Under the pieces are notes generated by a model. It saw nothing but the letters and a program-made list of their open reading frames with translations. It ran no database searches and had not been told where the DNA came from. Both the position numbers and the translations under genes were made by a program. From positions 1,674,501-1,738,500 of the forward strand of contig NZ_CP009429.1 of the NCBI RefSeq assembly GCF_001314325.1: a stretch of 64,000 nucleotides of DNA. The letters run 5' to 3'. Shown here one piece after another: positions 42,028-45,025 of this stretch (within the stretch, counting starts at the first letter, position 1; every line of letters starts with the position of its first letter). Source of the stretch: Sphingopyxis macrogoltabida (GTDB lineage Bacteria > Pseudomonadota > Alphaproteobacteria > Sphingomonadales > Sphingomonadaceae).

Positions 42028-42059
42028 CGGCTAGCTTCCCGGCAAAGGGGGGCTAGCCG
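42028..42059 (+). promoter_or_regulatory. Hairpin masking the ribosome binding site of the TIR gene
   Basis: CGGCTAGCTTCCC pairs with GGGGGGCTAGCCG (8 perfect pairs, two G-U, three G-C) around the loop GGCAAA: a 13-bp stem ending at the base before the ATG. The purine run 42044-42052 is the only Shine-Dalgarno candidate and lies partly inside the stem. The structure may repress translation until opened, or the DNA palindrome CGGCTAGC/GCTAGCCG may be an operator. No U-tract follows. Confidence 0.6.
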
Positions 42060-43244
42060 ATGGTCGATGTGTTCATTTCCTATTCGCGCGACAACAAGGC
42101 GCGCGTCGCCGATATCGCGGCGGCGGTTTCGGCGGCAGGCTATGACGTCTGGTGGGATGCCGAACTGCCGCCGCACCGCTCGTACGGCGATGTGATTACC
42201 GAAAAGATCGGCAGCGCAAAAGCGGCGATCGTCGTCTGGTCGCAGGCGTCGGCGCAGTCCGAATGGGTGCGCGCCGAGGCCGATGTCGCACGCAACCAGA
42301 AGAAGCTGGTGCAGACGGCGATCGACGACGTGATGCCGCCGCTGCCCTTCAACCAGATCCAGTTTGCCGACCTCAGCGACTGGCGCGGCGAGGCCGATCA
42401 CAGCGGCTGGCGCAAGGTGCTGATGAGCCTCGAGGATTTATGCGGCAGGGAGGCGGGGGCCGCACCGACGCCGGCCCCGCGCCCGGTGGCCCCGGTCGCC
42501 CCGCCGCGGGATGATGTTCCGTCGCCTGCGGGAAAATCCTCTTTCCTGCCGTGGGCGCTGCTCGGGCTGGCCGTCGTCGCCATTGCGCTGCTCGCCTGGA
42601 AACTGACGCAGCCTGCGGCCGTCGAACCTGCCGCATCGCAGGCGGCCGCGCCGGTCGAGGAGGAAAAGCCCGAGGTCGCCGCATCCGACGATGCGCCCGC
42701 GCCGGCCACCGCGCCGGGGGAAGCCTTCACCCTGGCCGCGGTCATCGACGACCCCGACGGCTTCACCAACATTCGCGCGGCACAGAACACCCAGTCGGCG
42801 ATCGTCGGCAAGATGCTCGAAGGCGAGAAATTCCTGACCTACAAACAACCGGGCCAATGGTGGCGCGTCCGCAAAGCCGACGGCACGACGGGTTATATGT
42901 TCCGCAAATATATCCGGCTGGTCGAGGGCGGCGCGGCACAGGGTGCGACAGCCGCGCCCGCCGGTCCGATGCCGACCGGGGTGGGCGGCAGCGGGGTGGT
43001 GATTCCCGATTCGTCCGAACGGCTGCTGACCCCCGCCGATATCGCCAATTTCGGGCTGCTCGAACTGCGGATCGCGCGGAACGAGATTTTCGCCCGCCAT
43101 GGTTTCCGGTTCAGGGACCCGCGGCTGGCGCGGCATTTCAGCCAGTTCGACTGGTATCGTCCGACGAGCGACAATGTGCAGTTGTCGGCGATCGAAAAGG
43201 CGAACGTCAGCCTGCTGAAGTCGGCCGAAGCCGCCGCGCAATGA
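42060..43244 (+). CDS. TIR domain protein with membrane anchor, SH3 and YARHG domains
   Basis: 394 residues. The TIR domain (1-125) starts VDVFISYSRDN; SEWVRAE places E73 four residues after W69, as in NAD-cleaving TIR domains such as SARM1. A Pro/Ala linker (133-158), one membrane helix (161-181), a second linker, a bacterial SH3 domain (about 223-287) and a YARHG domain (322-390; EIFARHGFRF) follow. The TIR should be cytoplasmic and the SH3/YARHG part periplasmic, suggesting envelope sensing coupled to nucleotide cleavage. Its stop overlaps the next gene (ATGA). Confidence 0.9.
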   Translation: MVDVFISYSRDNKARVADIAAAVSAAGYDVWWDAELPPHRSYGDVITEKIGSAKAAIVVWSQASAQSEWVRAEADVARNQKKLVQTAIDDVMPPLPFNQIQFADLSDWRGEADHSGWRKVLMSLEDLCGREAGAAPTPAPRPVAPVAPPRDDVPSPAGKSSFLPWALLGLAVVAIALLAWKLTQPAAVEPAASQAAAPVEEEKPEVAASDDAPAPATAPGEAFTLAAVIDDPDGFTNIRAAQNTQSAIVGKMLEGEKFLTYKQPGQWWRVRKADGTTGYMFRKYIRLVEGGAAQGATAAPAGPMPTGVGGSGVVIPDSSERLLTPADIANFGLLELRIARNEIFARHGFRFRDPRLARHFSQFDWYRPTSDNVQLSAIEKANVSLLKSAEAAAQ

Positions 43245-45025
43245 CCGATAGCGGGGCGACGGCGAGCGCCGCCGTCGAGGCGGAGGTCGCGCACCGGCTG
43301 GGGCAGGGCGATGCGTTGAGCGCGTTCGACTGCGCCGCCGCCGCCCGCCGCGCCGGAACCGACAGCCCGCGTCTCCGTTATCTGATGGTGCGCGCGCTGG
43401 CCGCGTCGGGCGACAGCCTCGGCGCGATGCACCTCTATGAACAGCTCGACCTCGCCATGAGCGGCGACGTCGATAGTCTTTCGCTCGCAGGGCGCATCTG
43501 GAAGGATGCAGCGTTCGACCACCGCGGTGCCGAACGCACGGCCTATCTGCAAAAGGCCGCCGCCGCTTACGATCACGCCTTTCGCATGTCGGGCGCAGAT
43601 TTTCCGGCGATCAATGCCGCGAGCCTGTACGCGATGCTTGGCGAACGCGAGCGGGCCGCGTCGCTCGCCGAACCGATCGCCGCCAATGGCCCGGCTGGCA
43701 ATTATTGGGATCAGGCGACCTTTGTCGAGGCGTTGCTGTTGCTGGGACGCGGGGAGGAGGCGTTGATCCACGCTCGCAGTGCGGATGAACAGGCCGGCAC
43801 CCGCGCCGGCGACCGCGCTTCGACCTGCCGCCAGATTGACCGGCTCGCCAAGAGCGGCGCGATCGATGGCGATCATGCCGCCGCAATCATGGCCGTGCTG
43901 CGCCCCATGCCGGTCGGCGTCTATTGCGGCCGCATGTTCCGGGCCGGCGGGGCGGGGGAGGCGAATGCGCGCACCGCGATCGCCCGGGCGCTCGACACCC
44001 GCCCCGTGTCGGCGCTGATCGGCCCGCTCGCCTGCGGGGCCGACATATTGTTCGCCGAGGAGGCGCTGGCGCGCGGTATCGACCTGACCGTGGTGCTGCC
44101 TTTCGCCGAGGATGATTTCATCGCCCAGTCGGTGGCGTCGGGCGGCGACGAATGGCTCGCCCGCTATGTCCGCTGCCGCGACGGCGCGGCGATGGTCCAT
44201 TTCGCCAGCAACGCGCGCTATGTCAGCGACGATTGCCAGTTCATCCTCGGCTCGCACACCGCAATGGGACTTGCCAAGCTCCGCGCCCGCGAACTCGAAA
44301 CCGCGGCGATCCAGTTCGCCGTGGTCGATCCGGCGGTGGCGGCGCGGCCCGATGCCGTCATCGCGGGCACCAACGCTGATATCGCCCTGTGGCGCGACAA
44401 TGGCGGCGTTACCGGGACGATTGCCGTCGGCGATCTCGACCGCAGACTGGAATTTCCTCCCGCGCCGAAGCCGCCCGAGGGTACGCGGCGCGGCCTCTAT
44501 GCGATCCTGTTCGCCGATTTCGCCGGCTTTTCAAAGCTCGGCGAGGCCGAACTCCCCGTTTTCGCGCAGGAGGTGATGGGCAACATCGGCCGCATCCTCG
44601 ACGATTTCGGCGACGCCGTGTTGTTCCGCAACACTTGGGGGGATGCCGTTTATGCGATCATCGACGACCCGGCGACCGCCGCGCGGATCGCGCTGGCGAT
44701 GCAGGAACGGCTTGGTACCCTGCCGCCGGGCCTCGGCCTCGAAGGGCATCGCGCCGGGATGCGCACCGGCATTCACTTCGGACCGATCTATCGCGGCGTC
44801 GATCCGGTGGTCGGCAACGAGCTGTGGTACGGCACCGAAGTAACGCGCACCGCGCGGATCGAGCCGGTGACGCTGGTCGGCGAGATTTATTGCACCCAAC
44901 CGCTCGCGGCGATGCTCGCGCTCGGCAATGCGCGCGATTTCAACTGCGACTATGTCGGCAAGGTTCGTCTCGCTAAGGATTATGGCGAGTTGGCGCTCTA
45001 TCGCCTGTCGCGCCGCTCAGCCTGA
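43241..45025 (+). CDS. TPR/TRAFs-binding, SLOG-like and class III nucleotide cyclase protein
   Basis: 594 residues, soluble. Residues 1-220 are helical repeats resembling the TRAFs-binding (DUF4071) domain (DFPAINAASLYAMLGE). Residues 225-385 look Rossmann-like: LIGPLACGADILFAEEAL and VVLPFAEDDF resemble SLOG nucleotide-sensing domains. Residues 415-594 are a class III cyclase: metal ligands D426 (FADFAGF) and D468 (WGDAVY), R539 conserved. The adenine-selecting lysine position is N464 and the transition-state asparagine is T535. It is translationally coupled to the TIR gene and overlaps rsmB by nine bases tail-to-tail. Function is inferred, not known. Confidence 0.85.
   Translation: MTDSGATASAAVEAEVAHRLGQGDALSAFDCAAAARRAGTDSPRLRYLMVRALAASGDSLGAMHLYEQLDLAMSGDVDSLSLAGRIWKDAAFDHRGAERTAYLQKAAAAYDHAFRMSGADFPAINAASLYAMLGERERAASLAEPIAANGPAGNYWDQATFVEALLLLGRGEEALIHARSADEQAGTRAGDRASTCRQIDRLAKSGAIDGDHAAAIMAVLRPMPVGVYCGRMFRAGGAGEANARTAIARALDTRPVSALIGPLACGADILFAEEALARGIDLTVVLPFAEDDFIAQSVASGGDEWLARYVRCRDGAAMVHFASNARYVSDDCQFILGSHTAMGLAKLRARELETAAIQFAVVDPAVAARPDAVIAGTNADIALWRDNGGVTGTIAVGDLDRRLEFPPAPKPPEGTRRGLYAILFADFAGFSKLGEAELPVFAQEVMGNIGRILDDFGDAVLFRNTWGDAVYAIIDDPATAARIALAMQERLGTLPPGLGLEGHRAGMRTGIHFGPIYRGVDPVVGNELWYGTEVTRTARIEPVTLVGEIYCTQPLAAMLALGNARDFNCDYVGKVRLAKDYGELALYRLSRRSA

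Follow-up and report, generated by a model that had tools for sequence, protein, structure and literature searches.

A TIR gene paired with a TPR-S–SLOG–cyclase gene in Sphingopyxis suggests a two-step nucleotide signalling relay

What might two overlapping genes do together when one encodes a TIR protein and the other a nucleotide cyclase? This question is raised by a locus of the alphaproteobacterium Sphingopyxis macrogoltabida, found in a stretch of 64,000 nucleotides (positions 1,674,501 to 1,738,500 of contig NZ_CP009429.1, assembly GCF_001314325.1) that is called here the window. The original prediction, made from the letters alone, had described a two-gene module of a membrane TIR protein and a SLOG/cyclase protein, and the Pfam domains, the ATGA overlap between the genes and a hydropathy scan confirm it. 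The SLOG fold proposed for the middle of the second protein was also recovered; since the full-length structure search of this protein was filled by cyclases, the middle domain was folded alone (ThsA is not among the rows listed, which excludes nothing). The features of both genes are as follows (L and G numbers below are our labels for loci and genomes).

42060..43244, + strand: gene 1 (P0001), TIR-transmembrane-SH3-YARHG protein of 394 residues, predicted inner-membrane protein
42069..42398, + strand: TIR domain, residues 4-113, predicted cytoplasmic (Pfam TIR_2, 1.4e-20)
42276..42278, + strand: Glu73 codon, predicted catalytic glutamate of the TIR (TIR alignment)
42540..42596, + strand: single transmembrane segment, residues 161-179 (hydropathy scan)
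42765..42914, + strand: bacterial SH3 domain, residues 236-285, predicted periplasmic (Pfam SH3_3, 1.2e-9)
42993..43229, + strand: YARHG domain, residues 312-390, predicted periplasmic (Pfam YARHG, 2e-20)
43241..43244, + strand: ATGA overlap, start of gene 2 and stop of gene 1
43241..45025, + strand: gene 2 (P0002), TPR-S–SLOG–class III cyclase protein of 594 residues
43328..43744, + strand: TPR-S / MAP3K TRAFs-binding-type helical repeats, residues 30-168 (Pfam)
43913..44425, + strand: SLOG domain, YpsA-like, residues 225-395 (predicted fold of the middle domain)
44480..45019, + strand: class III nucleotide cyclase domain, residues 414-593
44516..44518, + strand: Asp426, first predicted metal-binding aspartate (91/91 aligned homologues)
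44630..44632, + strand: Asn464, base-specifying position (N 76, D 10, E 4, A 1 of 91)
44642..44644, + strand: Asp468, second predicted metal-binding aspartate (91/91 aligned homologues)
44855..44857, + strand: Arg539, predicted transition-state arginine (89/91 aligned homologues)

The domain anatomy, the SLOG fold and the pairing of the two genes stand on firm ground, and the best reading of them, which we find about equally easy to accept and to doubt, is a signalling relay that would convert an envelope cue into a cyclic nucleotide. Protein 1 would span the inner membrane, the TIR facing the cytoplasm and the SH3 and YARHG domains facing the periplasm. An envelope cue would cluster or release the TIR, which would then cleave NAD+ to give an ADP-ribose-type signal. 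Protein 2 would bind this signal with the TPR-S repeats, with SLOG, or with the two together, and binding would activate the cyclase dimer to make a cyclic mononucleotide, which may act through a receptor encoded elsewhere.

Regarding the first step, NAD-cleaving TIRs have a catalytic glutamate motif, and Glu73, which was said to be kept, is indeed a glutamate in 37/37 aligned TIRs, a count that includes the TIR of the window; by this feature the TIR of gene 1 is a predicted NADase. The single membrane segment suggests an N-in/C-out orientation. No cNMP_binding domain was found in P0001, in which Pfam detects TIR, SH3 and YARHG. A second TIR protein of the same genome (L099:5621-6796, 391 residues, one transmembrane segment) is 40% identical to the TIR of gene 1; the whole genome (G000, 5.75 Mb) holds four TIR_2, one TPR-S, two class III cyclase and 13 cNMP_binding matches, and the only TPR-S match is gene 2.

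In the second protein TPR-S reaches 50.6 bits against a Pfam cut-off of 27.6, and no Pfam family apart from TPR-S, MAP3K_TRAF_bd and Guanylate_cyc exceeds its cut-off; a PADLOC scan of P0002 gave no match. The cyclase fold is supported by the structure search, and judged by its residues, two predicted metal-binding aspartates and a predicted transition-state arginine, the domain is of the class III cyclase type. Its base-selecting pair is Asn464/Leu528, not the canonical Lys/Asp or Glu/Cys; the K/D and E/C pairs are present in three solved cyclases aligned for comparison, and some active cyclases also lack a canonical pair. Regarding the binding step, SLOG had been proposed as the sensor and the TPR-S region left unassigned. 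The SLOG fold stands, but TPR-S is at least as good a candidate for the site that binds the signal: residues K88, Y110, N125 and Q198 are invariant in 91/91 aligned homologues, and Pfam itself calls the domain a 'sensor'. Among the matches listed, the closest named locus is that of Sphingopyxis panaciterrae, with 93% identity over gene 2. Another TPR-S-cyclase protein, P0111 (901 residues), has an additional N-terminal region of ~300 residues.

The linkage of the two genes was followed in other genomes. A homologue of gene 1 is found upstream of gene 2 in 19/20 named genome loci (L005-L024), including L017, which is cut by the contig end yet shows part of the homologue, and the same 4-base overlap recurs in L005, L007, L023, L024 and L060. 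Gene 2 was matched in 77/296 genomes of the order, and the presence of TIR_2 within 5 kb was tested in 62 of the other 76; the 14 left out (G003, G073, G112, G128, G137, G139, G165, G187, G206, G218, G221, G237, G280 and G291) matched no more than weakly or over a short length. A TIR_2 was found in 27/33 cyclase-type genomes, where ~0.33 would be expected by chance, and in 24/29 TPR-S/SLOG-type genomes (~0.13 expected), that is, in 51/62 versus ~0.5 for both types together, assuming 3.3 Mb per genome. The TIR and gene 2 are co-oriented in 26 of the 27 cyclase-type genomes, the exception being G272, and two of the six cyclase-type misses, G042 and G093, are close to a contig end and have their TIR on another contig. 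Outside the order, the family profile matches 18 further genomes, six of which have a TIR_2 within 5 kb (G384, G462, G466, G605, G608 and G693). Seven of the 18 (G365, G384, G392, G411, G458, G462 and G483) match only or nearly only in the cyclase region, and a TIR accompanies two of these seven versus four of the remaining 11. The genomic link to TIR of the TPR-S sensor systems is present in the order and in 6/18 genomes outside it; the expected co-occurrence holds in the first (27/33) but not in the second, so TIR is the usual partner near the genus and not everywhere.

Another aspect of the locus is its chromosomal site. Within the genus, gene 2 was matched in 30/80 genomes, 28 of them strongly, and its chromosomal site, in the gap from DUF885 to rsmB, is a fixed one: the strong match ends at most 222 bases from rsmB in 27 genomes, whereas the contig of the 28th (G324) shows no rsmB. 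The near flanks are DUF885, rsmB, MFS and SapC. When nine flanking genes were scanned with PADLOC, seven had no match, the other two, rsmB and a DEAD-type helicase, matched broad methyltransferase/helicase models, and no PycTM was among the nine; the locus is located neither in a mobile element nor in a defence-gene cluster. From the 52 sites of the genus without a strong gene 2 match 20 were fetched, and in 18 both DUF885 and rsmB are in the stretch, nearly abutting in 15 of these. In L107 and L111 the pair is absent and ~1.1 kb between DUF885 and rsmB holds a long minus-strand open reading frame (~340 residues), presumably a glycosyltransferase from its start; L104 and L122 show no DUF885 in the fetched stretch. 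Remnants of both genes remain between DUF885 and rsmB in L120 (G291), and L018 has an in-frame stop within the SLOG region. From this survey it follows that the pair is an accessory chromosomal unit whose two genes decay together in one genome. Horizontal exchange of the pair was considered; in 12 sequences, the correlations between the pairwise distances of four genes lying next to each other range from 0.60 to 0.76, values that do not decide the matter.

This location bears on the purpose of the module. The same two-step relay could serve envelope or stress physiology and not phage defence, as an accessory sensor of the housekeeping type that many species have lost, a possibility that we place slightly below an even chance. 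It agrees with the position beside rsmB among ordinary genes, with the lack of any gene 2 match in the phage collection and of any confirmed match in viral contigs, with the SH3-YARHG composition of the predicted periplasmic half of gene 1, and with relatives that adjoin a CRP-type regulator, an ABC transporter with cNMP_binding, or dCache-SpoIIE. Nevertheless, the patchy presence and decay of the pair recall conflict systems, as do its plasmid relatives and the PycTM encoded in one plasmid gene run. The defence role that had been suggested finds no support in the location, but a relative encoded on a plasmid close to a Pycsar effector leaves room for it; defence may be the purpose, though this locus gives no reason to prefer it to signalling at the envelope.

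Several observations weigh against a relay from TIR to cyclic nucleotide. The operon holds no cyclic-nucleotide receptor, and P0002 has a threonine at the transition-state asparagine position; together with the non-canonical base-selecting residues this makes its cyclase activity uncertain. The cyclase is degenerate in many relatives of the order. L021 has no gene-1 homologue, the 5 kb around the sensor-cyclase contain no TIR_2 in G122, G205, G284 and G163, and none was found within this distance in 12/18 genomes outside the order (in one of them, L144, our own TIR profile found a weak open reading frame nearby); where a TIR is present outside the order, it is opposite in strand to gene 2 in 3/6 (G462, G466 and G608). 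The relatives in L131, L133, L134 and L139 retain all four TPR-S residues with no TIR_2 nearby. Conversely, TPR-S is absent from some TIR-linked members (e.g., L022, L023, L024 and L063), which also speaks against it as the signal site; because such forms exist, TPR-S need not read the TIR product.

These TPR-S-less forms would also suit a TIR that is a scaffold only, whose binding to the TPR repeats switches the cyclase without NAD chemistry. TPR repeats often bind proteins, and the gene overlap suggests a stoichiometric complex; however, the catalytic glutamate is kept in every aligned TIR and the SLOG motif is retained in members that lost TPR-S, so that we regard a purely scaffolding TIR as unlikely.

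The relay from TIR to cyclase is also to be seen in the light of its exchangeable partners. Besides the TIR-SH3-YARHG architecture, present in L060, the partner can be a TIR-FHA protein encoded downstream, in which no membrane segment was found (L061), or a TIR-TPR protein (L068, L075). In L083 and L085 pNTSase1 sits between the TIR and the TPR-S gene; its family, PF20301, was found in 16/63 genomes, in 15 above its cut-off, and in all 16 within ~200 bases of the gene-2 relative. Most of the loci L070-L098, read by eye and unscored, have open reading frames in this gap. The gap gene is small (~145-303 residues) and fast-evolving, with pNTSase1 recognisable in some and a frequent IDP-containing tail end; a strict C-terminal pattern retrieved it in nine loci and its own profile in 12, nine of which were its seeds. 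A simple swap, with pNTSase1 only where the cyclase has decayed, was ruled out by G004 and G018, in which the gene 2 match spans the cyclase with pNTSase1 adjacent (the motifs of G004, at L075, are intact); several degenerate-cyclase loci hold only a diverged open reading frame in the gap, which also argues against it. In L079-L097 the cyclase domain is decayed or missing while TPR-S and SLOG remain, usually near a TIR, so a cyclase of its own is not required for the module to work.

Further relatives have no TIR_2 nearby. The gene-2 relative adjoins an ABC transporter gene and a CRP-like regulator in L131, adjoins an ABC transporter with cNMP_binding in L139, and is fused to VWA in L134. In L136 and L137 the neighbour is dCache-SpoIIE and the surrounding 5 kb contain no TIR_2, which indicates that a protein of the gene 2 type can take another input; in L136-L138, three similar and perhaps related genomes, K88 and Q198 are lost and Y110 is changed, as would fit a TPR-S site for a TIR signal, but the relatives that keep these residues with no TIR_2 nearby speak against it. 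Since some relatives outside the order adjoin cyclic-nucleotide-binding proteins or dCache-SpoIIE, and a plasmid relative shares a gene run with PycTM, the cyclase is probably the output of the module, with exchangeable inputs.

Gene 2 was also matched in eight plasmid records, of which six were opened. In a plasmid of Priestia aryabhattai (L125, 2118-6744), a cyclase-TPR-S protein is encoded in a + strand gene run with PycTM (PADLOC, 1.7e-29), from which it is separated by two genes without known function; the run also holds an RyR-annotated gene, and a TIR gene lies ~1.6 kb further on the other strand. This run is possibly an NAD-gated Pycsar variant. In the Tolypothrix plasmid a short cyclase reading frame (144 residues) is followed by a protein annotated as TIR, for which Pfam gives WD40 as the best matches, and in the Caballeronia plasmid TPR-S is kept, the cyclase is just under the Pfam cut-off, the SLOG motif is altered and a TIR gene is ~5.5 kb away; the Rhizobium and the two Novosphingobium records gave nothing further on the module.

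Pycsar systems consist of the cyclase PycC, which makes cCMP or cUMP, with PycTM or PycTIR, and PycTIR is a TIR effector with its own cNMP-sensing domain. By analogy, the order of the steps could be reversed, with protein 2 sensing the trigger and the cyclic nucleotide activating the TIR as an NAD-depleting effector. TIR NADases such as PycTIR act as effectors in known systems, the Priestia relative shares its run with PycTM, and the non-canonical base-selecting residues permit an unusual product; however, protein 1 has no cyclic-nucleotide-binding domain and appears to be membrane-anchored with an extracytoplasmic sensor half, and dCache-SpoIIE takes the place beside the L136 and L137 relatives, so that we consider the reversed order quite improbable. 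That the two genes are chance neighbours with unrelated functions, for which only the four tested genomes of the order away from contig ends and without a nearby TIR_2 could be cited, is contradicted already by the 51/62 count, by the ATGA overlap and by the joint remnants in G291, and can practically be dismissed.

A broader view of the relay from TIR to cyclase, which we offer tentatively, is that NAD chemistry would be converted to a cyclic mononucleotide by a cyclase of unusual base specificity, with exchangeable inputs (TIR with SH3-YARHG, FHA or TPR, or dCache-SpoIIE) and outputs (a CRP-type regulator, a cNMP-binding transporter or PycTM), perhaps as a root that Thoeris-like and Pycsar-like signalling share. 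If the relay exists, bacteria hand one immune-type nucleotide signal on to a second, cyclic-nucleotide signal. Residues K88, Y110, N125, Q198, D426, D468 and E73 are ready targets for point mutants in this environmental genus.

The region before gene 1 contains one more feature:

42029..42058, + strand: conserved element upstream of gene 1, formed by GGCTAGC, a G-run and GGCTAGCC, ending 1 base before the ATG

GGCTAGC(C) is found ~25-30 bases before the TIR start in the window and in L005-L016 and L018-L020. The first arm keeps CTAGC in 16/16 sites, and the second arm is GGCTAGCC in 12/16, the other four being different. This sequence folds well as a hairpin (z -3.08), which was set aside; because the arm beside the ATG varies while the first arm stays constant, a promoter-like element is preferred, and the element may be promoter-like or operator-like. 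The scan for a sigma-70-type match on the + strand gave none.

In comparison with known systems, our literature search found no paper combining all the searched features; absence from print is not claimed. The Thoeris defence, whose signal is a cADPR isomer, combines ThsB (TIR) with ThsA (SIR2-SLOG); in it a TIR product is sensed by SLOG (PMC9503650, PMC11204291). As in Thoeris, a TIR gene adjoins here the gene of a partner with a SLOG fold, and the TIRs of the relatives L061, L068, L075 and L083 exceed the Pfam ThsB_TIR cut-off. In contrast, SLOG is joined here to TPR-S and a class III cyclase and no SIR2 or macro domain is present, the TIR is predicted to be membrane-anchored with periplasmic domains, and its scores are just under the cut-off of ThsB_TIR (18.2 bits versus 21.2) and far under that of NCBIfam ThcB4 (18.6 versus 220). 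Pycsar is approached by the class III cyclase in a TIR context and by the Priestia run; it differs in that the TIR protein of gene 1 lacks the cNMP-sensing domain of PycTIR, P0002 has no PADLOC match and the scanned flanks hold no PycTM. The TPR-S scaffold was reportedly predicted by Burroughs and Aravind (J Bacteriol, 2020) to sense NAD-derived signals, and the predicted TPR-S/pNTSase1 systems resemble the relatives in the order that carry TIR and pNTSase1 (PF20301) beside the TPR-S gene; the version of the window is without the middle gene, its cyclase looks intact and its TIR is linked to SH3-YARHG.

A last likeness is to the central TPR region of the animal kinase ASK1 (MAP3K5), which is said by the same authors to have acquired TPR-S from bacteria. 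The TPR-S profile matches the structures 5ulm (3.4e-5) and 8qgy, and the gene 2 family profile matches human MAP3K5 in 5ulm at 4.8e-5; a citing sentence on the ASK signalosome is found in PMC8195603. R85, K88, N125 and G134 are the same residues in both, as are those of GR-x-x-KD and IN-x-A; Tyr110 is Phe in ASK1, where the output is a protein kinase instead of a cyclase. Since TPR-S is common to both, finding its ligand would permit a direct test of whether the ASK1 repeats bind an NAD-derived ligand.

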